IMG/VR virus record: IMGVR_UViG_3300010354_016385
Span: 1 to 51,150 of that record
From: a virus
Length of the DNA: 51,150 nucleotides
Strand: one strand, 5' to 3'
Made by a program: the position numbers and the translations under genes. Below, piece after piece: positions 2,492-38,716 of the stretch (positions are counted from its first letter, which is position 1; the number at the start of each line of letters is the position of its first letter). Below the pieces are notes generated by a model. The model saw only the letters and a program-made list of their open reading frames with translations, was not told where the DNA came from and did no database searches.

Positions 2492-2970
2492 TTTCGGCAC
2501 ACAAGAACTTTTTTATCGAGAGATGTCGAGAAAGAGGCTACGACGTCAAGGACTCAATGTCCTGTGTCGTCAGTACCGACGGCGACATCTGGACGATTGA
2601 CGAAACGCACCCGGCTTACCCGCACGCAAGGACAAACCACGCGGCGGCAGAGGGCAGGAATTTTCGCAAGCCGCGCGCAACACCCCAGCCGGCAGCCGTC
2701 GCCGACCCAGGAAGCGGTCCAGGGACTGAACTCAAGCGACTCTTGGCGGGGTTTCCTTTTTACATCAAGACGACGCCTAACTGCCGATGCAACGCTAGAG
2801 CAAAACAAATGGATGTGTGGGGCGTGGAAGAATGCGAAAAGCGTCTTGACGTCATTGTCGGATGGCTCAGAGAAGAAGCCGAGCGCCGCAAACTCCCGTT
2901 TATCGAAGCGGCCGGCAGGATTCTTGTCCGGCGATCCATCGCCGCCGCGAAGAACAAGGCAAATGTTTGA
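2488..2970 (+). CDS. Conserved phage-type protein, unknown function
   Basis: 160 residues, with the start overlapping the previous stop (ATGA). The C-terminal half holds a compact motif: GTELKRLLAG, then NCRCNARAKQMD, then WG...C. The two close cysteines and the W-G look like a small metal- or disulfide-stabilised unit. It sits between the Ser-rich proteins and the glycosyltransferase fusion in the same overlapping operon and overlaps that gene by 8 bases. The family is not recognised with confidence; a role in modifying or assembling the Ser-rich proteins is only a guess from position. Confidence 0.65.
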
Positions 2971-4261
2971 TCGCATTGTTTGCATCTCGCTCAAGCGGCG
3001 GCCAGACCGTCGCGAAGCGTTTCGCAGTCGCCTGCCGGTCGACTGGCCTTGGCGACCAGTCGAAATCATTGACGCCATTGACGGAACGCTGTGTAAACAC
3101 CCGCAGTGGTGGAAGCAGGGCGGCGGCGCGTGGGGGTGCTACCGGAGTCACCTCGGCGTCATCGAGAGCGCGATCAATGACGGAGCAGGCAGCATCCTCA
3201 TACTCGAAGACGATGTAACCTTCGTCGAAGGCTTTTCTGTAAAGGCACAAGAGTATCTGTGCCGCCTACCGACGGACTGGGGCCAAGCGTACTTCGGCGG
3301 ACAGCACCTCAAGCGACCGGAGAGAGTGTGCGATGGGGTCATGCGGGCGATGAACATAAACCGCACGCACGCTTACGCCCTTCGCGGAATCGCAAATATG
3401 CAAGAGTGCTATCGTTGGCTCTGCAATACAGAGAACTGGCCCCCACGCAATCACGTCGACCATCACTACGGCAGAATGCACGAAGCAAGAATCATTCCTG
3501 CGTACACGCCTTCAGATTGGCTCTGCGGACAGTCGGCTGACGCCAAAAGCGACGTATGCTGGAAGGAGATGAAGGAGCGGTGGTGGCACATGAAGAAGCC
3601 GCCGCTGGCGACAGCGTCGGAGCCGCCGTTTGTGGCGGTCATCGGCCTGCATCGCAGTGGCTCGAGTTGCATCGCAATGATGCTGCACAAACTCGGTGTC
3701 AGTATGGGGAATAAGATTAGGGGGTACGAGGCAAAGAACGGAGGCGGAGGCGAGGCTGTCGGGCTTTCGGCCATTTGCGAAAAAGCCGCGAGGTTCCCAG
3801 CAACGGCCATTCGCAACCCGGCAAAGTGCCAGACGGCGCTCTCGCGGTGGATAGCGGGCAGGAGAAGGGCGGCTCGCGGAATTTGCGGCGGCAAGTATCC
3901 GCACCTCTGCGCCATGGGCGACATGCTCCGCGAGGCGGCCGGAGCCGGACTGCTTGTGGTGCATTGCGATCGCCCACTCGAAGAGTCCGTGGAGTCGCTC
4001 AAAAGGCGCAGCAGGAAATCTCGTGGTTGGCTGGCTGTATCCGACGAAGACAGCGAGAGGGTGCAAGCGTGGCTGTGGGCTGAGAAGCAGAAGTTCCTGT
4101 CAGCCACTCCGCCGCATCAGGTTCTCAACGTTCAGTACGCGAGGCTCAGAAAAGACCCAGCCGCGATCGTTGCTGAAATGGTTGAGTTCCTTGGAATCCG
4201 CCCAACGGAGGAGCAGGTTGCAGCAGCAGTCGCACACGTCAAGCAAGAGGGCGAAAAATGA
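2963..4261 (+). CDS. Fusion: glycosyltransferase family 25 + sulfotransferase domain
   Basis: 432 residues from the ATG at 2963, which overlaps the preceding gene's end; earlier in-frame ATGs lie inside that gene. Residues 1-215 look like GT25 (LPS galactosyltransferase/procollagen galactosyltransferase type): VCISLKRRPDRREAF start, SHLGVIESA, and the acidic ILEDDV motif near 79-85. Residues 223-432 look like a sulfotransferase/P-loop domain: VIGLHRSGSS near 227-236 matches the 5' PAPS-binding loop, followed by VVHCDRPLEESVESLKRRS and an LRKDP segment typical of the family's C-terminal part. Each half alone is well supported; the pairing in one chain is unusual. It would transfer a sugar and then sulfate, but substrates are unknown. 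It is coupled by ATGA to the next glycosyltransferase. Confidence 0.8.
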   Translation: MFDRIVCISLKRRPDRREAFRSRLPVDWPWRPVEIIDAIDGTLCKHPQWWKQGGGAWGCYRSHLGVIESAINDGAGSILILEDDVTFVEGFSVKAQEYLCRLPTDWGQAYFGGQHLKRPERVCDGVMRAMNINRTHAYALRGIANMQECYRWLCNTENWPPRNHVDHHYGRMHEARIIPAYTPSDWLCGQSADAKSDVCWKEMKERWWHMKKPPLATASEPPFVAVIGLHRSGSSCIAMMLHKLGVSMGNKIRGYEAKNGGGGEAVGLSAICEKAARFPATAIRNPAKCQTALSRWIAGRRRAARGICGGKYPHLCAMGDMLREAAGAGLLVVHCDRPLEESVESLKRRSRKSRGWLAVSDEDSERVQAWLWAEKQKFLSATPPHQVLNVQYARLRKDPAAIVAEMVEFLGIRPTEEQVAAAVAHVKQEGEK

Positions 4262-5871
4262 TCGACATACTGCTGCCGTTGGGGCCGGGGTCACTGAATG
4301 GAGACGACAGAGAGTTGAGGTACTGCCTCCGCAGCATAGAAAAGCACGCAAAAGGGCTGCGGAGGGTTTGGATAGTGGGCCACAGGCCGCGGTGGGGGCG
4401 TGAAAGCGACGCCGTTCGTTTCGTTGAAAGAGCGGAATTCGACGCTCCCAAGGAATCGCGGATTTCTCTCAAGGTGCTGTGGGCCTTTGAGAACCTTGAT
4501 GTCACGGAGACGGTCGCGTTTTGGAACGACGACTACGTTCTGACCAAAGACACAGACTTGCCGCTGATACCAAACTACTACAGCGGCGGGCTGTGGACGA
4601 AGAGGAGGTCGCCGTGGGGTGCAGCACGCCGCGCCACGCGGGCGGCGCTGATCGCGGCTGGTCTTTCTGCGAGAAACTACGACATTCATGTTCCCATTCT
4701 GTTCGAGCGAGAGAAGTACATCGCCCTTGGCTCGTGGTGGAGCAAGGGATATGTCGGAAAAAGCGTCTACGGAAACCACTACTGCCACTCCAATTCTCAC
4801 GCCACAGCGGATTGCAAACTGTGGCGAGGCTGGCGATCTCGGGTCGCAAAGAAGACGTCGCGTCGGTTTGTCGTTAGTTATGGAGACGTGGCTGCGAGAA
4901 GGGGCCTGTTAGGGTGGCTGGAGCAAGCACTGCCGCAGCCTTCTGCTCCAGAGACAGCCAGGAATCCGCCGGCAGAAACAGTAAAGAGGCAATCAACGAA
5001 CGAGCGATGGCACTTTCTCGTAAATGGCGGAGAGCCGTGGACGTACTTTCACTTTTTCTACGGCGTCTACTTGCCGCTCACCGCCGCGTTGCTCGACGCC
5101 GGCACGCCCCGGTCGCTTACGATCTCCGCAGCCAGTCGTGATAGGCGACACACCGGCTTCGGGGCGCTCGGCCGGCACATTCTCTTGCATCCGCTGATTG
5201 CAAACAGGTGCGATGTGGCGATTCAGCAATCAAGAGATGAGCATGAAATGGACGGTTGCAGAGTAATTGAAGGCGCGGACTTTTACCAAAGAACCAAAAA
5301 AGCCGGCGGCAAGTTGGTGCATTTTGATTTATTCAAGCGATTCATTGAGCACAGAAAAGACGTGCGTCAGTTTCTGACGGCTGAATATCGCTGCAGCGCT
5401 GACACGGACGGAAGCGTCGTGGTTGTAGACAGGCTGCCGCCGGCCCCAGGAATCGGCGAGCCGGACACCGGAGCCAGTCGCCGCGCCATGAACGCAAAGG
5501 ATGTGGCCGAGGCAATAAGCAAGGCGCTGCCGAATAATAAAACTATCTTGCTACACCCAGAAACTCAAGGCATGGCAGAGCAAGCAAGAGCGTTTTCTAA
5601 GGCAAGTGTAATAGTAGCGCAGCACGGCGCTGCTCTCAGCAACATATACTTCTGCGGCGCTCATTCGCAGGTGCTGGAAATACATCCATACAAAAAAAGA
5701 TACTTCGCGGCCATTGCGCATGTGCTCGGCATTCCGTACATGGACTGGACAACAAAAATGGGCGGCCTCCGACTGAGCGGCGCGAGGGGGAAGAGGGCTT
5801 TTGTGACCGCCGATCCGTCGGAAGCCGCGAGGCGTGTGTGTGAGATTATTCAAGCGAGGAATTCAGCGTGA
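4258..5871 (+). CDS. Fusion: Stealth-like glycosyl/phosphotransferase + GT61 (DUF563) glycosyltransferase
   Basis: 537 residues, ATGA-coupled to the previous gene. Residues 1-220 begin with IDILLPLGPGS and LRYCLRSIEKH and contain FWNDDYVL near 90-97. This resembles the N-D-D motif of Stealth-type capsule phosphotransferases or a GT-A fold. After a linker near 225-245, the second part contains HFLVNGGEPWTYFHFFYG and, near the end, IVAQHGAALSNIYFCG and LEIHPYKKRYF, the characteristic end of GT61 enzymes. Two transferases in one chain suggest addition of a disaccharide or of a sugar phosphate plus a sugar. The GT61 call is stronger than the Stealth call. Confidence 0.75.
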   Translation: MIDILLPLGPGSLNGDDRELRYCLRSIEKHAKGLRRVWIVGHRPRWGRESDAVRFVERAEFDAPKESRISLKVLWAFENLDVTETVAFWNDDYVLTKDTDLPLIPNYYSGGLWTKRRSPWGAARRATRAALIAAGLSARNYDIHVPILFEREKYIALGSWWSKGYVGKSVYGNHYCHSNSHATADCKLWRGWRSRVAKKTSRRFVVSYGDVAARRGLLGWLEQALPQPSAPETARNPPAETVKRQSTNERWHFLVNGGEPWTYFHFFYGVYLPLTAALLDAGTPRSLTISAASRDRRHTGFGALGRHILLHPLIANRCDVAIQQSRDEHEMDGCRVIEGADFYQRTKKAGGKLVHFDLFKRFIEHRKDVRQFLTAEYRCSADTDGSVVVVDRLPPAPGIGEPDTGASRRAMNAKDVAEAISKALPNNKTILLHPETQGMAEQARAFSKASVIVAQHGAALSNIYFCGAHSQVLEIHPYKKRYFAAIAHVLGIPYMDWTTKMGGLRLSGARGKRAFVTADPSEAARRVCEIIQARNSA

Positions 5872-6416
5872 AAAGATACACTTCCGACTGGTTTACGGCG
5901 CACATTCCTGTGTGGCAGTCAGTTGTTGTGCCGCGACTGCCGGCCGGCAAGCGGAGATGGCTTGAATTGGGAAGCCACGAGGGACGCTCGGCTGAATGGA
6001 CACTCGCAAACGCGCTTCGCGACGGCGACGAATTGGTGTGCGTTGACACTTGGTCGGACCAGCGATTTGAAAAGACGTTTGACGCCAACGTCGGGTCGCG
6101 GGCGAGAAAGATAAAGTCCAGCACGGAAGAGGCATTGATCGGCATGGTCAACGCGGGCGAGCGATTTGACGTCATCTACGTCGACGCAGACCACGACGGG
6201 GCCGCCGTTCTGTCGGATTGCGTCTTGTCGTGGATGCTCCTCCCAGTTGGCGGCACCATGATCTTGGATGACGTGCTCTACAGGCACCCATCGCAGCCAT
6301 GGGCGCTCGGGCGCATCGACCCACAGTGTGGCGTTGATGCGTTTCTCTCGGCCTACAGACTGCGGACGAGGCTGCTGCACTATGCGTGGCAGGCAATAGT
6401 CGAGAAAGTTCGCTGA
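5868..6416 (+). CDS. Class I SAM-dependent methyltransferase (Methyltransf_24 type)
   Basis: 182 residues, GTG start overlapping the previous stop. SAM-binding motif I is WLELGSHEGRSAEW near 32-45; the acidic loop is VCVDTW near 57-62; FDVIYVDADHDGAAVLSD followed by LLPVGGTMILDD matches the family in which an aspartate- and histidine-rich site binds metal (cephalosporin/macrocin O-methyltransferase relatives). In this operon it most likely methylates a sugar hydroxyl of the glycan being built, but a protein or other small-molecule substrate is possible. Confidence 0.8.
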   Translation: MKRYTSDWFTAHIPVWQSVVVPRLPAGKRRWLELGSHEGRSAEWTLANALRDGDELVCVDTWSDQRFEKTFDANVGSRARKIKSSTEEALIGMVNAGERFDVIYVDADHDGAAVLSDCVLSWMLLPVGGTMILDDVLYRHPSQPWALGRIDPQCGVDAFLSAYRLRTRLLHYAWQAIVEKVR

Positions 6417-6447: not shown

Positions 6448-7509
6448 ATGAAAATCATCGTGACCGGAGGCGCGGGTTTCATTGGGAGTCACGTTGTAGA
6501 CGGCTTGTCTGAGAGAGGGCACGCTGTTGAGGTGCTGGACAATCTCTCCTCTGGATCGCGAGGCAACGTGCAAGGCGGCATACCGCTGCATGTGGCCGAC
6601 ATCAGAGACGCCAGCGCTGTTGATGCTGTCTTTGATGCCGTCCAGCCGGACGCCGTGTGCCACCACGCAGCGCAGGTCTCGGTGAGAGGCGCTGTGCGTG
6701 ACCCACGCACCGACGCCGAAACTAACATCGGAGGACTTCTGAACACGCTGAACGCAGCGAAGAGGCTCAAGTGCCAACTGTTCGTATTTGCGTCGAGTGG
6801 TGGCGTTCTTTACGGAGACGTGCTTCATCCAGCAGACGAGCGCTCTCCGGTGATAGCGAAAAGCCCATACGCAATCTCCAAATGGGCCGGCGAGCAGTAC
6901 CTTGCTTTCTATGCGAAAGAGCACGGGCTCTCGGCTGTCTCGCTTCGGTACGCAAACGTATATGGGCCGCGACAAAGTCCGCATGGGGAGGCCGGCGTTG
7001 TGGCGATTTTCTGCAACAAACTGCTTCACGACAAGCCGGCGATGATCTACGGGGACGGCAAATGCGTGCGCGACTATGTGTATGTGTCCGACATCGTCAG
7101 GGCCAACGTAAAGGTATTTTCGGAATGGGGCAGGTGTATTCAGAGGGCGACTGTTACGACACTCAATGTGGGCACAGGTGTTGGGACGGACGTGAACGCG
7201 ATGGAATGTGCCCTCCGCGCAGCGATGCGGCGCGCGCTGGATGAATATGGGCTAACCAAGGTTCTTCGGCTGCCCCTGTATGGAGACGAAAGGGCTGGTG
7301 ACCTGAGAAGCAGCGTAGTTGACGCCTCCAGGGCTTTCGGGCTGCTTGGATGGCGGCCGGAAGTGTCGCTTGCAGACGGGCTCGCTACGACAGCAATGTC
7401 TTTCGTGTGCCAGCAAGCATCGGCGAAAAAAAGCACCATTTCTCGCCTTGACCAGGACTGGGCGGCTCTGGAAGATAATGAACCATGCCCAGCACCCACC
7501 ACTTCTTGA
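6448..7509 (+). CDS. NAD-dependent sugar-nucleotide epimerase (GalE-like extended SDR)
   Basis: 353 residues. NAD-binding GGAGFIGSHVVD near residue 7; HHAAQVSVRGAVRDP; FASSGGVLYGD carries the catalytic Ser; SPYAISKWAGEQYL carries the Tyr-x3-Lys pair; RYANVYGPRQSP follows. This is the layout of UDP-glucose/UDP-GlcNAc 4-epimerases. The exact substrate cannot be read from the sequence. A 30-base gap with GGAGGCG separates it from the methyltransferase. The C-terminal 40 residues extend beyond the usual fold and overlap the next gene by 25 bases. Confidence 0.85.
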   Translation: MKIIVTGGAGFIGSHVVDGLSERGHAVEVLDNLSSGSRGNVQGGIPLHVADIRDASAVDAVFDAVQPDAVCHHAAQVSVRGAVRDPRTDAETNIGGLLNTLNAAKRLKCQLFVFASSGGVLYGDVLHPADERSPVIAKSPYAISKWAGEQYLAFYAKEHGLSAVSLRYANVYGPRQSPHGEAGVVAIFCNKLLHDKPAMIYGDGKCVRDYVYVSDIVRANVKVFSEWGRCIQRATVTTLNVGTGVGTDVNAMECALRAAMRRALDEYGLTKVLRLPLYGDERAGDLRSSVVDASRAFGLLGWRPEVSLADGLATTAMSFVCQQASAKKSTISRLDQDWAALEDNEPCPAPTTS

Positions 7510-7787
7510 TCAACGGTGCCCGCTGGGTGTGGCGGTACACGAGGCTGCGAGGTCAGGCTGCCGGCTGGGCATACCTGCCGGACCCGGCGAAGCCCGATAT
7601 GCCCCGGAAGGTACTGATCGACTCGCGACTCAAGGGTCGCGCCCGCATGGAGACCGAGATTCACGAGGCGCTCCACGTCTGCTTTCCGCAGATGTCCGAG
7701 GAGACGGTGACATCGAGCGCCCGTGACATCAGCCGAATTCTGTGGTTCCTGGGCTACCGGGTGAACGAGGAGAAGGCTCCATCGTGA
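7485..7787 (+). CDS. Small HExxH zinc-metallopeptidase-like protein
   Basis: 100 residues. The sequence ETEIHEALH near 57-64 contains an HExxH zinc motif (H60, E61, H64) preceded by a short beta-hairpin-like region with RKVLIDSRLKG. Small proteins of this type occur in phages and are usually annotated as putative metallopeptidases; activity is unproven. It overlaps the epimerase end and its stop overlaps the next GTG start, so it is translated with the sugar genes. Confidence 0.65.
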   Translation: MPSTHHFLINGARWVWRYTRLRGQAAGWAYLPDPAKPDMPRKVLIDSRLKGRARMETEIHEALHVCFPQMSEETVTSSARDISRILWFLGYRVNEEKAPS

Positions 7788-8359
7788 TCTACGTCGTCGG
7801 AGCAGGAGGCTTCGCCCGCGAGGTGGCGCAGTGGGCGCGGGACGCTGGTCTCGTGATCGATCGCCTGCTTGACCAGGGCGACGACGACCTCGACTTCACG
7901 CCGGCAGACTGGTTCCTGTGCGGCCTCGGCGAGCCGAGGCTCAAGCGGATCGTCTGCGAGCGGCTCCGCAGCCGCGGCGCCCGCTTCCGCACGCTCATCC
8001 ACCCGACGGCGGTCATCACATCGCCGGGGCACCTTGGGGAAGGCACGATCGTCTGCCCGCACGCGGTGGTCAGCGTCAATGCGGTCGTCGGCCGGCTGGT
8101 CACGATCAACTGTGCCGCCACGGTGGGCCACGACACCACCGTCGGCGACTACTCATCGATCTCGTCGCACGCCGACATCTGCGGGCACGCCAGCCTCGGC
8201 GATGGCGTGCTGATGGGTTCGCACGCCAGCATCCTCCCGCACGCAGTCGCCGGCGACTGGTCGATCGTCGGCAGCGGAAGCGTCGTGGTGAAGGAGGCTC
8301 CGGCTCGATCGACCGTGATGGGCGTGCCTGCGTCCGTAATCTACACGAGGACACAATGA
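7784..8359 (+). CDS. NeuD/PerB-type sugar O/N-acyltransferase (left-handed beta-helix)
   Basis: 191 residues from GTG 7784, which overlaps the preceding stop; the frame is open upstream only by chance. The N-terminus YVVGAGGFAREVAQWA is the Rossmann-like nucleotide-sugar-binding half of the NeuD family. From about residue 85 hexapeptide turns appear (GEGTIVCPHAVV, GHASLGDGVLMGSHASILPHA), ending GVPASVIYTR, typical of trimeric acetyltransferases such as PglD, NeuD and GDP-perosamine N-acetyltransferase. The downstream ACP and ketoacyl synthase suggest its donor may be an acyl-ACP or a longer acyl-CoA rather than acetyl-CoA (inference). The acceptor is probably an amino sugar nucleotide. Confidence 0.85.
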   Translation: MIYVVGAGGFAREVAQWARDAGLVIDRLLDQGDDDLDFTPADWFLCGLGEPRLKRIVCERLRSRGARFRTLIHPTAVITSPGHLGEGTIVCPHAVVSVNAVVGRLVTINCAATVGHDTTVGDYSSISSHADICGHASLGDGVLMGSHASILPHAVAGDWSIVGSGSVVVKEAPARSTVMGVPASVIYTRTQ

Positions 8360-8577
8360 AAGAGTTTTGCCTGCATCTCGACCGGCTCATCGAGCAGCCG
8401 GCCGGCACCAGCACGCCGGAGACGACGCTTCTCCAGTTGGCCGGATGGGACTCCATGACGGCCATGGGATTCATGGCAATGGCCGACCGGCAGTACGGCG
8501 TCGTCGTCAGCGCCGTCCGCCTCATGGATGCGAAGACGGTCGCCGACTTGGCCTCGCTCGTGGGAATCGCCGAATGA
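8356..8577 (+). CDS. Acyl carrier protein
   Basis: 73 residues, ATG overlapping the previous stop (ATGA) and stop overlapping the next ATG. It has the four-helix ACP layout: helix I MKEFCLHLDRLI, the loop TPETTLLQL, then GWDSMTAMGF with Ser33 as the phosphopantetheine site, and a final helix TVADLASLVGI. The D-S-M signature is intact, so it can probably be loaded by a host phosphopantetheinyl transferase; none is seen in the window. It would carry the acyl chain built by the next two enzymes. Confidence 0.88.
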   Translation: MKEFCLHLDRLIEQPAGTSTPETTLLQLAGWDSMTAMGFMAMADRQYGVVVSAVRLMDAKTVADLASLVGIAE

Positions 8578-9512
8578 ACCACGTCGCCATTCGCGACATC
8601 GCCGTCGCGGTGCCACCGACACGCCGAGATCATTCGGCGTGGGAGGCCGGCATCGCCACAAAACTGATTGCCGCCACTGGCATCATGGAGCGTCGCGTCG
8701 TCGAGAACGAGACGATGACGGAACTCTTCGAGGCAGCGGCTCGGCGGGTGTTGGGGCATCGCCGCGTGATCGACGGCCTCGTCGTCGTCACCCAGACGCC
8801 GGACATCAGAATCCCGCCGACCGCGAACATCCTGCACGGCCGGCTCGGCCTGCCGTCGTCGTGCGTTGCCTTCGACGTCAACCAGGGCTGCTCCGGCTAC
8901 GTCTACGGCCTGCAAATCGCCGGCAGCCTCGTGCAGGCGGGCCTCCGCCGCGTCCTGATGTTGGCAGGCGACTGCCTGTCGACGGTCGTGAGCCCAAATG
9001 ACCGCGCCACCGAGCCGCTCTTCGGAGACGCGGCGTCCGCGACATACCTGGAGTACGACGCCGACGCTCCCAGGCTTTCTGTCGGCTGCGGGTCAGACGG
9101 CAAAGGAGCGAGCCACCTCCGGCTCGACCACGGCGACAATGAGTGCCTCTACATGAGCGGAGCCTCGGTCTTCGAGTTCGCCTCATCGACGGTGCCGACG
9201 CTGGTCGAGCAGACGCTGGAGCAGGCGGGCCTGACGCTCGACGACATCGACGCTGTCGTGCCGCACCAGCCGAACGCGACCATGCTTGAGCACCTTCGGC
9301 AAAAGTGCCGTGTACCGAACGAGAGGTGGGTCGCCGGCGTCGTCGAGCACTACGGCAACGTATCGAGCGCGTCGATTCCCCTGGCGCTCGTCCTATCGGG
9401 GCGTCGCGGCCGACTGCTCTTGGTCGGCTTCGGCGGTGGCTGGTCATACGGCGGCGCGATCGTCGACCTCTCCGAGACGCGAATCCACCCGCTCGTGGAG
9501 GTGGGCAGGTGA
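8574..9512 (+). CDS. 3-oxoacyl-ACP synthase III (KAS III / FabH-like)
   Basis: 312 residues from ATG 8574 (ATGA overlap). It has the complete KAS III catalytic set: Cys106 in NQGCSGYVYGL, His231 in PHQPNATM and Asn262 in GNVSSASIPLAL, plus the C-terminal GFGGGWSYGGAI loop. Such enzymes join an acyl-CoA or acyl-ACP starter to malonyl-ACP, or in some clusters act as acyltransferases. With a private ACP and reductase next door it probably makes a short acyl chain such as acetoacetyl-ACP rather than serving bulk lipid synthesis (inference). Confidence 0.9.
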   Translation: MNHVAIRDIAVAVPPTRRDHSAWEAGIATKLIAATGIMERRVVENETMTELFEAAARRVLGHRRVIDGLVVVTQTPDIRIPPTANILHGRLGLPSSCVAFDVNQGCSGYVYGLQIAGSLVQAGLRRVLMLAGDCLSTVVSPNDRATEPLFGDAASATYLEYDADAPRLSVGCGSDGKGASHLRLDHGDNECLYMSGASVFEFASSTVPTLVEQTLEQAGLTLDDIDAVVPHQPNATMLEHLRQKCRVPNERWVAGVVEHYGNVSSASIPLALVLSGRRGRLLLVGFGGGWSYGGAIVDLSETRIHPLVEVGR

Positions 9513-10234
9513 GCCACTACCTCGTCACTGGGGCTTCGAGCGGCATCGGGCTGGCGACAGCCAGTCATCTCGCCGGCCTCGGACACCGGGTCTTTCTGCT
9601 GGGCCGTGACAGCAAGCGGCTTGCGATGGCGCTGCTCAATCTCCCCGGCAGCGGCCACGAGCGCCTGAGTGTCGACCTCATGTCGCTCGATGACGACGGC
9701 GCAGCGACGCTCCTTGAGTCTCTGGCGGCAGAGCGGGGGCCATTCGACGGCCTCGTTCACGCTGCTGGCATCCACGCACTATTGCCACTCAAGTACGCCA
9801 CCAGCGATGCGGAAATGATGCGAATGAACTACGGCACCGCGTGGAGCCTTGCGAAGGCGTTCCGCAGGCCAGCCGTGAGAACAGAGAAGGCCGCGATTGT
9901 CTTCGTATCCAGCGTCGCCGGAATCGTCGGCCAGCCGGCCACGAGCCAGTACGCCGCCAGCAAGGCCGCGCTCATCGGCCTGACCAAGGCTCTGGCAATC
10001 GAGTTGGCACCGGACATCCGCGTCAACTGCGTGGCTCCTGGCGTCGTGCGGACGCCGATGCAGGAGCGGCTGGAAGACTCGATGACTCCGGCGCAGTGGC
10101 AAGCCGTCGTCGCCGAGCATCCGCTCGGCATCGGCACGCCGGAGGACGTGGCCGAGGCGATCGAGTATCTGCTCAGGCAGAGGTGGACGACGGGGACCGT
10201 GCTGACGATCGACGGAGGCTACACCTCACGATGA
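9509..10234 (+). CDS. Short-chain dehydrogenase/reductase (FabG-like ketoreductase)
   Basis: 241 residues from GTG 9509, overlapping the previous stop. Classical SDR signatures: TGASSGIG at 7-14, HAAG near 84-87, catalytic Ser134/135, Tyr148 and Lys152 in YAASK, and the C-terminal IDGGYTS. Next to KAS III and ACP the likely reaction is NADPH-dependent reduction of 3-oxoacyl-ACP to 3-hydroxyacyl-ACP. A sugar dehydrogenase role is the alternative. Confidence 0.85.
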   Translation: MSHYLVTGASSGIGLATASHLAGLGHRVFLLGRDSKRLAMALLNLPGSGHERLSVDLMSLDDDGAATLLESLAAERGPFDGLVHAAGIHALLPLKYATSDAEMMRMNYGTAWSLAKAFRRPAVRTEKAAIVFVSSVAGIVGQPATSQYAASKAALIGLTKALAIELAPDIRVNCVAPGVVRTPMQERLEDSMTPAQWQAVVAEHPLGIGTPEDVAEAIEYLLRQRWTTGTVLTIDGGYTSR

Positions 10235-11289
10235 TCGTGTACACGTCGCCGGAGCAGTTTGACCGGGAGATGGAGTCGTTCGACGACCACTGGATTCCCG
10301 TCGCCATGGCCGACGAGGTGGCCGAGCCTGACTCGTTCGTCGTCCGCCGTGTCGGCCGCCGCGAGGTCGTCATTCAAAACTTTGGAGGCTCGCTCAAGGC
10401 GTTCTTGAACGTCTGCACGCACCGCTTCAACCGGCTCCAGGCCGAGCCGTGCGGAACGAGGAAACTCATCTGCGGCTACCACGGGTGGGAGTTTGGCGCT
10501 GACGGTCTGCCATGCCGCATCCCTAAGAGGCCAAGGTTCGAGAACCTCGACCCTGAGCGGCACCGGCTGGTCGGCTACGCCGTCGACACCTGCGGAAAAC
10601 TGATCTTTGTCAGGAGGCGTGCTGCGGGCCTGCCGCTGGGCGAGTGGCTCGGGATCGCGAGGCCGTTCATCGAGATGCTGGCCTCGGCCTGCGGCGAGCG
10701 CATCGCGGCGAAGACGACGGTCATCAGAGCCAACTGGAAGATTCTGGTTGAGAACACGCTGGAGGCGTACCACGTCGGGCACGTCCACGCGGGGTCGTTT
10801 CACCGAATCGGCCCATCGGCCGGACACTTCTATTGCATGACCACGCCGCACACCGCGTGGCACACAGACGTGTCGGAAAAGGCGCTCAAGACACTGCACG
10901 CGGTGTCCGACGCCTACTCGAGCCGGCCGCGACGGACGGATCAGTACATCCATCAGTTGGTCTGGCCGACTTGCACGATCGCGACGCTCTTCGGCCTGAC
11001 CTACGGCGTGCAGTTCTTCACGCCGCTGGACGCGAGCACGACGCAGTTCACGAGCGTGACCTACGCGACCGACGGCGTCGTCGCCGACCACGAGCGCCGG
11101 CGATACGTCAACGAGACGGCCGCGAGATTCAACGAGCAGGTCTTCGCCGAGGACGCTGCCGTCTGCGAGGCGGTGCAGCGCGGTTGCGGAGATGCTGTCG
11201 ACAGCATCCTCGGATGCCTGTCCGGGGAGGAGGCCAGGGTGGCGGCGTTCCAGAAGACCACCGCGCTGGCGGCGGACGGACGACTCTAG
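10231..11289 (+). CDS. Rieske-type non-heme iron oxygenase, large subunit
   Basis: 352 residues from ATG 10231 (ATGA). The Rieske [2Fe-2S] motif is complete: Cys62-x-His64 and Cys81-x2-His84. The mononuclear iron site is in NWKILVENTLEAYHVGHVH, with His181 and His186, and an EDAAVCEAVQRG segment typical of the C-terminal carboxylate ligand follows near residue 305. The architecture is that of ring-hydroxylating/CntA-like oxygenases that hydroxylate unactivated carbons. In this operon it could hydroxylate the ACP-bound acyl group or the acyl sugar. No reductase partner is seen, so host electron donors would be needed. Confidence 0.85.
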   Translation: MIVYTSPEQFDREMESFDDHWIPVAMADEVAEPDSFVVRRVGRREVVIQNFGGSLKAFLNVCTHRFNRLQAEPCGTRKLICGYHGWEFGADGLPCRIPKRPRFENLDPERHRLVGYAVDTCGKLIFVRRRAAGLPLGEWLGIARPFIEMLASACGERIAAKTTVIRANWKILVENTLEAYHVGHVHAGSFHRIGPSAGHFYCMTTPHTAWHTDVSEKALKTLHAVSDAYSSRPRRTDQYIHQLVWPTCTIATLFGLTYGVQFFTPLDASTTQFTSVTYATDGVVADHERRRYVNETAARFNEQVFAEDAAVCEAVQRGCGDAVDSILGCLSGEEARVAAFQKTTALAADGRL

Positions 11290-19246: not shown

Positions 19247-19264
19247 GTGACGCAGCGATACAAT
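19244..19264 (+). promoter_or_regulatory. Shared upstream motif TAGGTGAC-N7-TACAAT (copy 1)
   Basis: TAGGTGAC, seven bases, then TACAAT. The same arrangement occurs at 37303-37323. TACAAT resembles a -10 box and ends only seven bases before the gmd ATG at 19272, so a transcript would start at or next to the ATG (leaderless). The TAG is also the stop of the preceding gene. Confidence 0.5.
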
Positions 19265-19271
19265 GGGCGGC

Positions 19272-20252
19272 ATGAAAACCGCCCTCATCACCGGCATCAC
19301 AGGCCAGGACGGCTCGTACCTCGCCGAGTTCCTGCTCGACAAGGGCTACGACGTCCACGGCGTCGTCAGGAGGTCGTCGTCGTTCACGACAGACCGTATC
19401 GAGCACATCTTCGACCGCGTCACGACGCACTACGGCGACGTCACCGACGGCGGCTCGATGGCTCGGCTCGTCCGCGAAATCGAGCCGGACGAAATCTACA
19501 ACCTCGCGGCGCAGAGCCACGTCCGAGTCTCGTTCGACCAGCCGAAGTACACGGCCGACGCCACCGGCATCGGCGCCCTCAATATGCTTGAAGCGGCCCG
19601 CGCGGTGCCGTCCTGCCGCTTCTACCAAGCGTCGTCGTCGGAGATGTACGGCGACGTCGTCGAGTCGCCGCAGACGGAGGCCACGCCGTTTCGGCCGCGG
19701 TCACCCTACGGCGTCGCCAAGTGCTACGCCCACTGGATCACGGTGAACTACCGGGAGTCCTACGGCCTGCACGCCTCCTGCGGCATCCTCTTCAACCACG
19801 AGAGCCCGCGGCGTGGCGAGACCTTCGTGACCAGGAAGATCACGCGGGCCATCGGCCGCATCAAACACGGCCTCCAGGACAAACTCTACCTCGGCAACCT
19901 CGCCGCCATGCGTGACTGGGGGTACGCCGGCGACTACGTCGAGGCCATGTGGCTCATGCTCCAGCAGGACGAGCCGGACGACTACGTCATCGCCACGGGG
20001 CAGACCTGGAGCGTGGACGAGTTCTGCCGCGACGCATTCGCCCACGCCGGCCTCGACCACCGCGACCACGTCGAACTCGACCCGCGGTACTTCCGGCCGG
20101 CGGAGGTCGATCTGCTCCTCGGCGACGCCTCGAAGGCTCGTCGCGTCCTCGGCTGGGAGCCTCGCGTCGGCTACGGCGATCTCGTGACGATGATGGTCGA
20201 CGCCGACCTCGAACTGGCAAGGCAAGAATATGTCGTCCAGCAGTCTCGGTAA
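19272..20252 (+). CDS. gmd: GDP-mannose 4,6-dehydratase
   Basis: 326 residues from ATG 19272; an ATG at 19263 would add MGG. It catalyses GDP-D-mannose to GDP-4-keto-6-deoxy-D-mannose. Visible signatures: [23 protein letters not shown] with the NADP-binding Gly motif, [22 protein letters not shown] with the Tyr-x3-Lys pair, [20 protein letters not shown] and [14 protein letters not shown]. All are characteristic of Gmd, so confidence is high. It overlaps fcl by 23 bases and supplies both the fucose and, potentially, perosamine branches. Confidence 0.93.
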
Positions 20253-21150
20253 GACGATCGTCACCGGAGGCGCCGGCTTCCTTGGATCGGCGGTCTGCAA
20301 GCGTCTGGCGGACGCCGGCGTCGAGCACGCCGTGCCGCGGCGGGCACACTACGACCTCACCTGCCCAACGACGACCTCGGCGCTCTACCGCAGCGTCAAG
20401 CCGGAGACGGTGATCCACCTCGCGGCCGAGGTCGGCGGCATCGGCGCCAACAGGGAGAATCCAGGCCGCTACGCCTGGGCGAACCTCGCCATGGGCGTCA
20501 ACGTGATCGAGCAGGCTCGTGCTCACGGCGTGCGCAAAGTCGTCTTCGTCGGCACCGTCTGCTCGTACCCGTTGTCGCCGCCCGTGCCGTTCTCAGAATC
20601 CAGCCTCTGGGACGGCTACCCAGAAGCGACGAACGCGCCGTATGGGATCGCGAAGAAGGCCATCGGCGAGATGCTGATGGGCTACCATCGGCAGTACGGC
20701 CTTGCCGGCGCCTACGTGATCCCAACGAACCTGTACGGACCTCGGGACAACTTCGACCCGTCGTCGAGCCACGTCATCCCGGCCCTGATCCGCAAGTTCG
20801 CTGAGGCCGGCGACACGCCGGTGTGTGTCTGGGGCACTGGCTCGGCGTCACGAGAGTTTCTCTACGTCGAGGACGCAGCCGAAGCGATCGTCTTGGCGGC
20901 CGAACGCATCGACGACCCGTCGCCCATCAACCTCGGCGGCTGCGGCGAGATCACGATCAAGGCGCTCGCTGAGAAGATCGCCGGCGTCGTCGGCCACACG
21001 GCCGGGATCGCCTGGGACGCCTCGAAGCCGGACGGCCAGCCGCGCCGATGCGTAGACTCGACGCGGGCCAAGGAACTGCTCGGCTGGGCGGCACGAACAG
21101 ACTTTGACGAGGGGCTCAGGAAAACGGTGGAGTGGTGGAGGGGGCGGTGA
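20230..21150 (+). CDS. fcl: GDP-L-fucose synthase (epimerase/reductase)
   Basis: 306 residues. It converts GDP-4-keto-6-deoxymannose to GDP-L-fucose. [12 protein letters not shown] is the NADP site; [17 protein letters not shown] is a Fcl/WcaG signature; [18 protein letters not shown] keeps the active-site Cys; [14 protein letters not shown] carries the Tyr-Lys pair; [13 protein letters not shown] keeps the conserved His. It lies directly after gmd in the same transcript. A related 4-keto sugar reductase is a less likely alternative. Confidence 0.9.
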
Positions 21151-21607: not shown

Positions 21608-21921
21608 TCGAGAACCAGCACATGCAGCGGACTCGCGATTCCGTCTGCGGGTGCAGTGTCGTCAGCGGTCGCGAGCCGCTGATCCTGCGTGTTTGCTGGC
21701 TTCTCAAGGTCCAGCGGCGGCGCAGGCAGAGGCGTCCAGTGTGTCACCTCTAGCGGGTAATCTGGGTAGCCCCTCCAGTGATGCGACACCGCTGCCGCCC
21801 CGTCTTTGTATTCCGTCACCGTCATCACGCGGCCAAACTGCAACTCGCGCTGCTTGGTTCTGCACACAACAGTTCCGCCGTGATCCGGCAGTCTCGCAGT
21901 CACGCTGATCCACTCGCTCAT
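21595..21921 (-). CDS. DUF551-like protein
   Basis: About 108 residues. The ATG shares its A with the integrase stop (TGATG), so it is coupled to the integrase; a GTG one codon upstream is an alternative. WISVTARLPDHGGTVVC at the start and VTHWTPLPAPPLD in the middle are the two signature parts of DUF551, a family common in phages with no known function. The C-terminal 40 residues are extra. Confidence 0.7.
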   Translation of the reverse strand: MSEWISVTARLPDHGGTVVCRTKQRELQFGRVMTVTEYKDGAAAVSHHWRGYPDYPLEVTHWTPLPAPPLDLEKPANTQDQRLATADDTAPADGIASPLHVLVLECES

Positions 21922-22787
21922 CACCCCACCTCAGTCAGCCTCGGGATCACGCTCGACGCGGCGACGCCGCTGACGATCCTCGGATCAAGGTACTTCCGAG
22001 TCGTCGCCGGGTCGGCGTGGTCGAGCAGCGTCTGGGCAGACCCGCCGGCCGCGGCGTAGTAGGACGCCGTCGTCCGGCGAATCCGGTGGAATTTGTCCCG
22101 CCGGCCGTGCGGCAGGCCGGCTCTCCGGAGGATGATCCCCAGGCGCCCCCAGAGGTACGAGCGGGTGCGAGGCCACGGGAAAACGAGGTCGTCAGGCCCG
22201 CGGTTGCCTCGGATCGCCTCTAGAGCAGCCTGAGTGTCCTCGCCGATCTCGCGGATCACGTCGCGTCGACCGCCTTTTCTGCTCTCCGCGACGAAGAGGA
22301 CGTGTCGCCCCTGCACGTCGCGCCAGTGCAGGCTCACGAGAGCGGTGCATCGCTCGGCCGTGTCGTAGGCGACCATCAGGAGAGCCTGCCACCACAGGCC
22401 GCCAGGGATGCCGCCGATCGTCGTCTGCTCCTTACCAGCAGCGTCAAGGAGCCTCTGCATCTCCGTCGAAAACCACGCCTGCGGCACACGCTCAGGCACC
22501 CTGATGGGGGGGTACTGCGGCCAGTGGTCGCAGAGTTTTCGTCTGGCGCTCCACTCGTGCAGCGCACGCAGTTGTGCCCGGTCCTTCGCAGCCGTCGCCA
22601 TGGCGCGCTCCTTCGCGCGGTGGCTCAGAAACCTCGCAACCTGCAACTCCGTCAGGTCGTCCAGCGTAGGCTCGTGACCTAGAAAGTCGCGAAAAGCGCG
22701 GATTGTGCAATCGTAGTTGTAGGCGCTCTTCTCCGAGAGCGACCGCAGGGGGGCGTATAGCCCGTTTAGAACGTCAGTCAAAAGCAT
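21921..22787 (-). CDS. int: Tyrosine recombinase (phage integrase)
   Basis: 288 residues. An N-terminal SAM-like DNA-binding half (LSEKSAYNYDCTIRAFRDFL) is followed by a catalytic half carrying the full set: Arg146 in TAERCTAL, Lys171, His234 and Arg237 in HRIRRTTAS, His257 in LLDHADPATTRKYLD and the nucleophile Tyr266. It would integrate or excise the phage genome, implying a temperate lifestyle now or recently. The first R box reads AERCTAL rather than the usual TGLR, which is a small departure. No attP core can be recognised by eye. Confidence 0.88.
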   Translation of the reverse strand: MLLTDVLNGLYAPLRSLSEKSAYNYDCTIRAFRDFLGHEPTLDDLTELQVARFLSHRAKERAMATAAKDRAQLRALHEWSARRKLCDHWPQYPPIRVPERVPQAWFSTEMQRLLDAAGKEQTTIGGIPGGLWWQALLMVAYDTAERCTALVSLHWRDVQGRHVLFVAESRKGGRRDVIREIGEDTQAALEAIRGNRGPDDLVFPWPRTRSYLWGRLGIILRRAGLPHGRRDKFHRIRRTTASYYAAAGGSAQTLLDHADPATTRKYLDPRIVSGVAASSVIPRLTEVG

Positions 22788-32794: not shown

Positions 32795-33067
32795 ATGAGA
32801 GACGTCAGAAAGCCACCCGAGAGTCTTGTTGTGGATGAAGATCAGTTCATCCTAAGGTGCGTTGACGACTACCTGATCGACGAGGGGGACGAGTACCACC
32901 CGTATGTCGACGTGCGGATCGACACGATCCCGCCGCACGAAGGAGACCTCGATTTCTCCGAGCGTCCCGAACTTCTGCGGCAGGCTGCGGCGTGGTTGGT
33001 GAAGGCCGCCGACTGGCTGGAGAGGCAGCAGCGCGCGTTTGCGGACGCAGTGTCGGAGGGACTGTGA
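32795..33067 (+). CDS. Small acidic phage protein, unknown
   Basis: 90 residues with TGAGGAGC before the ATG. Acidic N-half (DEDQFILRCVDDYLIDEGDEYHPYVDVRID) and a helical C-half LLRQAAAWLVKAADWLERQQR. The stop overlaps the protease GTG. Not recognised. Confidence 0.55.
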   Translation: MRDVRKPPESLVVDEDQFILRCVDDYLIDEGDEYHPYVDVRIDTIPPHEGDLDFSERPELLRQAAAWLVKAADWLERQQRAFADAVSEGL

Positions 33068-33798
33068 AGACGCTCGGCGCCTTTCTGCTGGTGACGGCTC
33101 CAGTCGTGGCCGGAACGACCGACGACCGCATCTCTGACGCGGTCTACCTCGACTACGGGAAGACGTTCGCACCGTGGACGAAAAAGGTGGAGGTGGTCGA
33201 GGCCAGCGGCAAACTGGCCGTCGGCAGTGGCGTTGTGTTCGCTGGGCGCTGGGCGCTGACTGCTGCACATGTCGTCGAAGACGCCGTGACCGTGTCTGTT
33301 GGCGGAAGCGCTGTAGACGCAATCTACGTTCACCCGCTGTACGACGGGGCGAGTGTTGGGTGGAATGACATTGCGTTGCTGCACTGCCAAAACGACTTCG
33401 GGCTGCCGTACTATCCGCCATTGGCGGAGCACGAAGACAACACAGGGGACCTCGTCACAATGGCCGGCTACGGAGCAACCGGCAAGATCAGCACAGGACA
33501 TGCAAAAAGCGACGGCCTGCTGCGCGCTGGCACGAACAGGATCGAAAGATATGAGCGGACGATCATTGTGTGTCGCGCTGAAAACGGCTCGAGCCCTCGA
33601 GAGTTTGCCATCGCGCCAGGGGACTCGGGCGGCCCGCTTTTCATTGGGGCAGGCCACGAGGCCGCCATCGCTGGCATCCATTCGTTCACGATGCGAGCCG
33701 GCAGTGGGCCAGTTCGCAGCCGCAGCGGCGAAGAGACGGGACATACGCGGGTGTCTCTGTTCCTTGACTGGATCGAAGGCGCCAGGAGGCAGCGATGA
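33064..33798 (+). CDS. Secreted trypsin-like serine protease
   Basis: 244 residues from GTG 33064. A signal-peptide-like start (MKTLGAFLLVTAPVVAG) is followed by a chymotrypsin-fold protease with the complete triad: His69 in WALTAAHVV, Asp102 in WNDIALL and Ser188 in GDSGGPLF. VGSGVVFAGRW and LVTMAGYGATG are typical of the fold. The protein should be exported to the periplasm or outside. A secreted protease within a phage replication unit is unexpected: it may act on host surface proteins, on virion precursors or in superinfection control. Confidence 0.85.
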   Translation: MKTLGAFLLVTAPVVAGTTDDRISDAVYLDYGKTFAPWTKKVEVVEASGKLAVGSGVVFAGRWALTAAHVVEDAVTVSVGGSAVDAIYVHPLYDGASVGWNDIALLHCQNDFGLPYYPPLAEHEDNTGDLVTMAGYGATGKISTGHAKSDGLLRAGTNRIERYERTIIVCRAENGSSPREFAIAPGDSGGPLFIGAGHEAAIAGIHSFTMRAGSGPVRSRSGEETGHTRVSLFLDWIEGARRQR

Positions 33799-37331: not shown

Positions 37332-37625
37332 ATGAGAAGACAGCCACTCGAGAGGACGATCGTCGCGAAGGTAGTTGCGCAGGCACGAAGCCTTGGGTGG
37401 TGGACCATGAAAACCCACGGCGGGAGTTACGGAACCGTTGTCGGCCTGCCGGACGTGCTCTGCATCAAGGATGGCCGAGCGGCATGGATGGAGGTCAAGC
37501 GTCCCGGCTGCGATCCGACCAGAGTGCAGTTGCACAGGCAACGCGAACTCTCGTCGTTCGGCTGCCCGGTCGCGACGGTGACGAGCGCCGCTGATGCCGG
37601 CGAGTTCCTGCGAGGGATCGCATGA
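37332..37625 (+). CDS. VRR-NUC nuclease
   Basis: 97 residues. The PD-(D/E)xK site is complete: GLPDVLCI (Asp41), then AWMEVKRPG (Glu54, Lys56), and RVQLHRQRELSSFGCPVATVTS. These stand-alone VRR-NUC proteins act as structure-specific, Holliday-junction-like nucleases in phages. Its stop overlaps the start of the aminotransferase, an unexpected partner, so the pair may only share a promoter. Confidence 0.85.
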   Translation: MRRQPLERTIVAKVVAQARSLGWWTMKTHGGSYGTVVGLPDVLCIKDGRAAWMEVKRPGCDPTRVQLHRQRELSSFGCPVATVTSAADAGEFLRGIA

Positions 37626-38716
37626 TGGACATCCAGTTCGGCGACGCAGTCCTTGGCGTCGAGGAGCGCGAGGCCGTCCTGCGTGTGCTCGATTCCGGCC
37701 GGCTGACCCGCGGCGAGCGGTGTGAGTCGTTCGAGGCGGCGCTCACCGGCCTCACGGGCTACGGCAGCCACGTCGTGTCCAGCGGCACCGCCGCGCTGCA
37801 CCTCGCGCTCCTGGCGGCCGGCGTGAAGAAGGGCGACCGCGTCGTCGTGCCGGCGACGACCTACATCGCGACGGCCAATGCCATCCTCTACTGCGGTGCG
37901 AAGCCCGTCGTGGTCGACGTCGACCGCGAGACATGGACGATCTCGGCGGAGCGTGCCATCGAGGCCGTCGAGGAGCACAAGGCCGCGGCGATCATGCCGG
38001 TGCATCTCTACGGCGCTCCGGCAGCGGACTTTCTCCAGTGGCGCGACGACTACTATCGGGCGACCGGCCGGCTGGTCCGCGTCATCGAGGACGCCGCGGA
38101 GAGCCTCGGGTGCCTGCGGTCTGGGGCGCACCCGTGCGGCGACTTCGCGTGCCTTTCGTTTTTCGGGTCGAAGACCATCACGACCGGCGAGGGCGGCGCG
38201 GTGCTCTACCGCGACGAGATGCTTGGGCGACGGGTGCGGCATCTGGCTGGTCAGGCTCAGACGAAGACGAGGTATCTGCACGATGCCTGTGGCTGGAACT
38301 ACCGGATGACCGAGGTGGCCGCTGCCATCGGAGAGCAGCAACTGCGGCGGCTGCCGGCGTTCCTGGCCGCGCGGCAGCAGGTGTTCTGGTGGTACGACCA
38401 GTTCCTCTCGCCGAAGTGGGTGCGCCAAAAACTCTGGAAGGATGACTCCCACGGGATGTGGGCCTACGCCGTCCGGCGCGTCGGCATGGACGCTCCTCGT
38501 GTCATCAGGCGGATGGCGATGGCGGGGATCGAGACGAGGCCGATCTTCCCGTGGGTGACGATTCATCGGCACTTGCAGAATGCCGACGCCGACCCGCTGC
38601 CAATGGCCGGAGCGCTGCATCGCGAGGGCATCGTCCTGCCGACGCACGTCAACCTGACCCGCGACGACGTGCGTCGCGTCTGCGACGAACTGGAGGCCGC
38701 GGCGGACACCAGATGA
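37622..38716 (+). CDS. DegT/DnrJ/EryC1 sugar aminotransferase (perosamine-synthase-like)
   Basis: 364 residues. PLP fold type I: SSGTAALHLALLAAGV, VIEDAAESLGC and the lysine in SFFGSKTITTGEGGAV. The stretch YLHDACGWNYRMTEVAAAIGEQQLRRL and IETRPIFPWVTIHRHL are very like GDP-perosamine synthase, which uses GDP-4-keto-6-deoxymannose, glutamate and PLP. The phage gmd makes exactly that substrate, so GDP-perosamine is the likeliest product; other 4-amino sugars remain possible. Confidence 0.82.
   Translation: MMDIQFGDAVLGVEEREAVLRVLDSGRLTRGERCESFEAALTGLTGYGSHVVSSGTAALHLALLAAGVKKGDRVVVPATTYIATANAILYCGAKPVVVDVDRETWTISAERAIEAVEEHKAAAIMPVHLYGAPAADFLQWRDDYYRATGRLVRVIEDAAESLGCLRSGAHPCGDFACLSFFGSKTITTGEGGAVLYRDEMLGRRVRHLAGQAQTKTRYLHDACGWNYRMTEVAAAIGEQQLRRLPAFLAARQQVFWWYDQFLSPKWVRQKLWKDDSHGMWAYAVRRVGMDAPRVIRRMAMAGIETRPIFPWVTIHRHLQNADADPLPMAGALHREGIVLPTHVNLTRDDVRRVCDELEAAADTR

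Follow-up and report, generated by a model that had tools for sequence, protein, structure and literature searches.

Known phage-encoded sugar decorations mostly combine host nucleotide sugars with a few transferases. What, then, would a virus do with an acyl carrier protein (ACP), a beta-ketoacyl-ACP synthase III (KAS III) and an oxygenase of its own? The question is raised by five genes at 7784-11289 of IMG/VR virus record IMGVR_UViG_3300010354_016385, whose 51,150 bases, in which we found no end repeats, are the window analysed here. We judge it probable that these genes form a translationally coupled operon in which a dedicated ACP would carry a short oxygenated acyl group through its assembly, for delivery to the 4-amino group of a nucleotide-activated sugar. 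In our best reading, the phage product would be a GDP-linked amino sugar, probably perosamine, whose N-acyl group is short and hydroxylated. An earlier note on this DNA had proposed a five-gene acyl set at this position, and Pfam families, gene calls and recurrence in 11 other viral contigs establish that the set is real.

Five coupled genes and their active sites

The cassette reads as follows.

7784..8359, + strand: NeuD/PglD/VioB-family left-handed beta-helix N-acyltransferase, 191 amino acids, GTG start (TIGR03570, Hexapep)
8356..8577, + strand: ACP, 73 amino acids, phosphopantetheine Ser33 in GWDSM (PP-binding, 1.3e-8)
8574..9512, + strand: KAS III, 312 amino acids, C106/H231/N262 (ACP_syn_III, ACP_syn_III_C)
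9509..10234, + strand: FabG-like short-chain dehydrogenase/reductase (SDR), 241 amino acids, GTG start, S135/Y148/K152 (adh_short_C2, 4.9e-41; phrog_3142, FabG-like reductase)
10231..11289, + strand: Rieske non-heme iron oxygenase, 352 amino acids (Rieske, Ring_hydroxyl_A)

All the Pfam families named in these lines (Hexapep, PP-binding, the two KAS III families, adh_short_C2 and the two oxygenase families) were matched above their curated cut-offs. The earlier note had given the gene overlaps as 1-4 bases; the genes do overlap, and each of the four internal junctions measures exactly 4 nucleotides (nt), the usual sign of translational coupling. The gene preceding the cassette (7485-7787) overlaps the acyltransferase gene by 4 nt as well.

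Every active-site residue named in the earlier note is present and invariant among ten phage copies: S33 of the ACP, the C106/H231/N262 triad of the KAS III, Y148/K152 of the SDR (S135 is likewise invariant) and the [2Fe-2S] ligands C62/H64/C81/H84 (CxH...CxxH) of the Rieske protein. These last ligands recur in the bacterial copies, as do the residues for mononuclear iron (H181/H186/D308) and the bridging E178, which are invariant in phage and bacterial Rieske homologues alike. The acyltransferase exceeds the NCBIfam cut-off for the NeuD/PglB/VioB family (TIGR03570, 167.6 vs 160.8 bits). Its best solved relatives are VioB (7txp, the top PDB match), a pilin glycosylation protein (4m98) and perosamine N-acetyltransferase (4ea7), and its invariant H116-D117 pair is matched in the alignment by an HD in both the 4m98 and the 4ea7 chain. 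A PDB search with the ACP profile returned no match. A predicted model of the Rieske protein (predicted local distance difference test score, pLDDT, 84.7) finds its best fold match in carnitine monooxygenase CntA (6y9d), an enzyme that acts on aliphatic carbon. The phage protein has in common with CntA and related Rieske oxygenases the fold, all metal ligands and the bridging Glu, although identity is only about 23-25%.

With each catalytic step assigned from its protein family, the route would run as follows. A host phosphopantetheinyl transferase would load the phage ACP, which host FabD would malonylate. The KAS III would condense an acyl-CoA, most likely acetyl-CoA, with malonyl-ACP to 3-oxoacyl-ACP, and the FabG-like reductase would convert this to 3-hydroxyacyl-ACP. 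The Rieske oxygenase, drawing electrons through host ferredoxin and reductase, would hydroxylate the acyl chain before or after transfer, and the NeuD/VioB-type enzyme would hand the acyl group to the amine of a 4-amino-4,6-dideoxy sugar, GDP-perosamine or another. Of the pathway proposed in the earlier note, a dedicated ACP-based route ending in a 4-amino-sugar-type N-acyltransferase is supported; the acyl product, the sugar and its destination we infer.

Recurrence in phages and exchange of the oxygenase

Scanning IMG/VR with the KAS III returned 11 further contigs (L002-L012), and profile scans with the Rieske protein and the KAS III gave the same contigs. The order of the five genes is the same in all 11, with L009 ending inside its Rieske gene. 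Per protein, L002 is nearly identical to the window, L003 is 84-96% identical and L004-L012 are about 47-75% identical. Together with the window, these 12 contigs share their phage flanks, carry differing IMG/VR sample numbers and fall into two clades. The 4-nt joints are kept in L006, L010 and L012; in L004, L005, L008, L009 and L011, a methyltransferase and a tail-protein-like open reading frame (ORF) stand between the ACP and KAS III genes, and the 4-nt coupling is lost there. For each of the five genes, the ratio of nonsynonymous to synonymous substitution (dN/dS) lies at 0.13-0.27 when the window is compared with L003 and at 0.05-0.14 inside the second clade; purifying selection acts on every one. 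Because the set recurs in 11 other viral contigs with dN/dS of 0.05-0.27, it is not a chance association.

In the KAS III tree, the phage copies cluster in a single clade, nested on a long stem within the bacterial homologues, a shape that suggests an old acquisition and not a recent pick-up from a host; in the Rieske tree, the phage copies were not firmly placed. Loci L080-L084 hold a KAS III without ACP, reductase or Rieske protein. Matches to the KAS III and Rieske proteins in an INPHARED tblastn search were discarded because, judged by record names, they look like host chromosome; they comprised unannotated 'phage' records and Acinetobacter MD-2021a records annotated benA/antA/fabH.

The virus is a tailed phage, and its cassette lies among late tail genes. 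This follows from the 70-kilobase (kb) contig of relative L007. On a single strand it encodes both terminase subunits (small and large), the portal, a head protease, the major head protein and the tape measure, and beyond these come genes of tail-fibre type, the cassette, a phosphoesterase resembling DNA repair exonucleases, a deoxynucleoside monophosphate (dNMP) kinase, tail fibres and a GDP-mannose 4,6-dehydratase (GMD). A host search with the major capsid protein of a relative gave its best matches in Planctomycetota genomes (34%, E 3e-58, in a Pirellula metagenome-assembled genome) and weak ones in Caulobacteraceae (1e-11) and Verrucomicrobiota (4e-9); we rejected a host assignment on this basis, the similarity being too remote to name a host. 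Two window genes complete this picture, of which the integrase suggests a temperate lifestyle.

21921..22787, - strand: tyrosine integrase (Pfam Phage_integrase above cut-off; phrog_1 integrase)
5868..6416, + strand: Methyltransf_24 methyltransferase (Pfam 3.3e-17)

Homologues of the methyltransferase lie in or beside the cassette in L003, L004, L005, L008, L009, L011 and L012. The same Pfam family adjoins the cassettes of an AT-rich phage (L089) and of a Janthinobacterium (L017), both described below.

A broader KAS III profile search uncovered two further viral contigs with an analogous cassette, G012 and G013, whose sequenced parts have only 26-32% G+C content (GC). The 23-kb G013 encodes phage DNA polymerase, sliding clamp, clamp loader, exonuclease and GroES/GroEL, and its set comprises GMD, methyltransferase, a short DegT protein, ACP, KAS III, SDR, Rieske protein, a second KAS III and the acyltransferase. 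GroES and GroEL genes adjoin in a phage contig at L088:2346-4264. The 124-kb G012, which encodes a large terminase, carries a matching set without a Rieske gene; a PhyH-family hydroxylase gene stands directly before that of the acyltransferase (L092:1272-2048, against L089:5966-7033 for the Rieske gene of G013). GMD and short DegT proteins are linked to the cassette in both phages. Because their KAS III copies group apart from the window lineage, the cassette was likely acquired separately by that lineage and by the AT-rich phages.

This exchange of PhyH for Rieske in an otherwise constant cassette is, in our view, the best evidence for hydroxylation of the acyl group by the oxygenase. The hydroxylating role that the earlier note had ascribed to the Rieske protein gains support from it. 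A search for the set elsewhere, as that note had advised, yielded the 11 IMG/VR contigs, the analogous sets of the two AT-rich phages and the bacterial chromosomes discussed below.

The acceptor sugar and competing explanations

Five further genes of the window bear on the sugar and its use.

19263..20252, + strand: GMD (TIGR01472, 511 bits vs cut-off 415)
20230..21150, + strand: GDP-fucose-synthase (GFS)-like epimerase/reductase (NF047922, 273.7 bits, below cut-off 500; Epimerase Pfam)
37622..38716, + strand: DegT-family sugar aminotransferase, perosamine-synthetase-like (best PDB matches 3bn1/3dr7, perosamine synthetases, 5e-63)
2963..4261, + strand: GT25-like glycosyltransferase plus sulfotransferase, candidate downstream enzyme (Pfam Glyco_transf_25 and Sulfotransfer above cut-off; scanned from 2564)
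4258..5871, + strand: GT61 glycosyltransferase with a weak Stealth CR2 match, candidate downstream enzyme (Pfam Glyco_transf_61, 6.3e-15)

The GMD would supply GDP-4-keto-6-deoxymannose, from which the DegT aminotransferase would make GDP-perosamine. GMD is kept at 76-77% identity in G005, G006, G009 and G011, the four relatives of sufficient length, and the aminotransferase is kept in all four at 55%. An IMG/VR scan with the aminotransferase alone gave no match, its single-sequence pattern being narrow; a search record by record did recover the relatives. Because GMD and a perosamine-synthetase-like aminotransferase co-occur in the window and in these four longer relatives, GDP-perosamine is the most likely acceptor of the acyl group. 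The likeness to acylated perosamine drawn in the earlier note is strengthened by the same two genes. Perosamine synthetase and GMD have also been reported among viral genes of a karst lake (PMC8226683). As a cultured model for phage amino-sugar synthesis there is the isolated Flavobacterium phage immuto (NC_055915), which encodes aminotransferases, a PglD-like acyltransferase, an epimerase and many glycosyltransferases; neither ACP nor KAS III is annotated within the stretch viewed.

Several observations weigh against the pathway as read here, its acceptor included. The aminotransferase lies 26 kb from the cassette, reaches no curated cut-off for perosamine synthase activity and has LegC as its top NCBIfam model, itself below cut-off, and the acyltransferase scores VioB above the perosamine enzyme; the sugar could therefore be another 4-amino sugar. 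The GFS-like gene beside GMD may use the same GMD product. A second KAS III, absent from the window phage, accompanies many bacterial cassettes and those of the AT-rich phages, and belongs to a distinct subfamily (L089:7036-8010; L092:2058-3056; L014, L015, L016). Ferredoxin, its reductase and a phosphopantetheinyl transferase were not recognised among the window proteins scanned.

The closest competitor keeps the acyl pathway and changes the acceptor to dTDP-viosamine, a bacillosamine-type sugar or a host sugar nucleotide, leaving GMD and the GFS-like gene to a separate fucose-type sugar. The rank of VioB among the solved acyltransferase relatives, the LegC model and the pairing of GMD with the GFS-like gene, both far from the aminotransferase, speak for it. 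We nonetheless consider it unlikely: the solved structures that match the aminotransferase best are perosamine synthetases, well ahead of the rest (216 vs 179 bits), GMD and the aminotransferase are both kept in every relative that spans the two regions, and GMD also accompanies the cassette of both AT-rich phages. We give little weight to an explanation in which the enzymes, as lipid auxiliary metabolic genes, boost the infected host's output of fatty acids or membrane lipids, with the hexapeptide protein separate. KAS III, FabG-like reductase and ACP are indeed fatty-acid-type enzymes, and prophage fabG-acpP-fabF sets in Rhodobacteraceae have been read as fatty acid genes (PMC8224337). Yet the phage KAS III falls below both general NCBIfam KAS III/FabH cut-offs (207.6 vs 249 and 178.2 vs 292.1 bits); the ACP matched no NCBIfam model. 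Further fatty acid synthesis genes, among them those for elongation, dehydratase and enoyl reductase, were not recognised among the window proteins scanned, which did not include every small ORF. The 4-nt overlaps, moreover, bind the acyltransferase and Rieske genes into the operon, and homologous cassettes occur in glycan loci.

Similarly little weight attaches to a small diffusible acyl molecule, a signal or an antibiotic-like compound, as the product in place of a sugar decoration. KAS III, ACP, reductase and oxygenase are generally known from specialised metabolite pathways, and one AT-rich phage has a PhyH-family hydroxylase; on the other side, the NeuD/VioB acyltransferase exceeds a sugar-acyltransferase cut-off, and an aminotransferase and glycosyltransferases recur beside the set in phages and bacteria. 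That metagenomic misassembly or host contamination fused a bacterial island to phage genes is hardly credible. All phage contigs considered here are metagenomic, and the KAS III and Rieske matches from the phage database resemble host DNA; but gene order and phage flanks agree across 12 contigs of differing sample numbers in two clades, the 70-kb relative has structural genes and cassette on one strand, and the cassette (64-69% GC, in a window of 63% GC) equals the adjoining tail genes in composition.

With acylated GDP-perosamine as the preferred product, the glycosyltransferases would place the sugar on virion proteins or on a host surface glycan; 2963-5871, just upstream of the cassette, is a phage glycosyltransferase locus, possibly one for sulfated sugars. 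The late tail location leads us to favour virion decoration slightly, and the integrase makes lysogenic change of the host surface a favoured reading as well. A broader proposal is that several unrelated phage lineages independently gained ACP-dependent acyl-sugar lines in which the oxygenase can be swapped (Rieske or PhyH), and that their virions bear hydroxylated N-acyl-perosamine-type sugars made by phage enzymes; it is tentative and less likely than not.

Known systems and the place of the phage cassette

A genome scan with the KAS III found 43 related bacterial loci, many of which group ACP, KAS III, SDR and acyltransferase. All five families, Rieske included, stand side by side in Duganella, Undibacterium, two Janthinobacterium and an Acidobacteriaceae metagenome-assembled genome (L013, L014, L016, L017, L024). 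These cassettes have the same adjacent families as the phage set; they differ in being chromosomal, in gene order, in having a second KAS III nearby (5 of 5) and in sequence, identity to the phage proteins being about 40% for KAS III and about 25% for Rieske. In Janthinobacterium PC23-8 (L017), genes for a DegT aminotransferase, a methyltransferase, a GT41-type protein and flagellin come next after the cassette, an arrangement that looks like a flagellin glycosylation locus. About 6 kb from this cassette, on the minus strand (L017 2142-3005), is a PhyH relative (340 bits).

The nearest characterized counterpart is the Pseudomonas syringae viosamine island (vioA, vioM, vioT, vioS, vioB, vioR and acp). 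Its KAS III gene (vioS), reductase gene (vioR), acp and vioB have been assigned the making of dTDP-N-(3-hydroxy-1-oxobutyl)-viosamine; modified viosamine is lost on mutation of vioR or vioB, and the P. aeruginosa PAK flagellin glycosylation island has homologues (PMC3927599). Both systems combine KAS III, 3-oxoacyl-ACP reductase, ACP and a VioB-type acyltransferase that acts, or in the phage would act, on a 4-amino-4,6-dideoxy sugar nucleotide, with a methyltransferase partner, and the phage proteins retain the KAS III triad, the ACP serine, the Ser-Tyr-Lys of the reductase and VioB/NeuD-family membership. The island is chromosomal, targets flagellin and uses dTDP-viosamine, with no Rieske protein given among its seven genes, whereas the phage set is a 4-nt-coupled operon, probably GDP-perosamine-based, and lies in the late tail region and not in a flagellin glycosylation island. 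A 4-amino sugar aminotransferase adjoins the cassette in the bacterial and AT-rich phage sets; in the window the candidate aminotransferase is in the same genome, 26 kb off, and is conserved in relatives.

Vibrio cholerae O1, with a tetronyl-perosamine O antigen encoded by the wbe locus and GDP-perosamine made from GDP-mannose in two steps (PMC3441752), resembles our proposal in its hydroxylated short acid amide-linked to perosamine. It differs in that the antigen is chromosomal and tetronate is assigned to other genes (VC0248-VC0252, including WbeL). Among the window proteins scanned, which were not directly compared with VC0248-VC0252, none showed a domain of the acyl-ligase type. Among phages, the accessible parts of two sources describe the prophage acpP/fabF/fabG sets already mentioned (PMC8224337) and lone ACPs of unclear function (PMC5463345). 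They share with the window a phage-borne ACP and reductase; a VioB-type acyltransferase, Rieske protein or amino-sugar genes are not described alongside in those parts.

The earlier note had called the set an undescribed module. For phages this stands as far as our searches reached; beyond them it does not, as the logic is that of the P. syringae viosamine island (PMC3927599) and a five-gene version with Rieske exists in bacterial chromosomes. The chemistry is of a known bacterial kind, that of flagellin glycans, and what is new is the phage setting, the oxygenase and the recurrence in phages. We found no phage pathway joining ACP, Rieske and glycan genes in the literature within reach, which excluded most subscription papers and preprints.

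The phage appears to bring along a small acyl assembly line of its own, oxygenase included, together with amino-sugar enzymes. If so, virion or host-surface glycans in infection could bear acyl groups foreign to the host, which would matter for receptor masking, superinfection exclusion and virion recognition. The ACP, KAS III and Rieske proteins of the window matched no PHROG family at E 1e-4, and the conserved cassette can serve as a marker for finding such phages; its five proteins are small enough for in vitro reconstitution.

Two neighbouring genes complete the survey. The 7485-7787 gene preceding the cassette encodes a 100-amino-acid protein with an HEALH (HExxH) motif, without a Pfam or PHROG match and 82-100% conserved in all relatives; it might be part of the module. 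A trypsin-family serine protease gene at 33064-33798 of the window is kept in the 70-kb relative.

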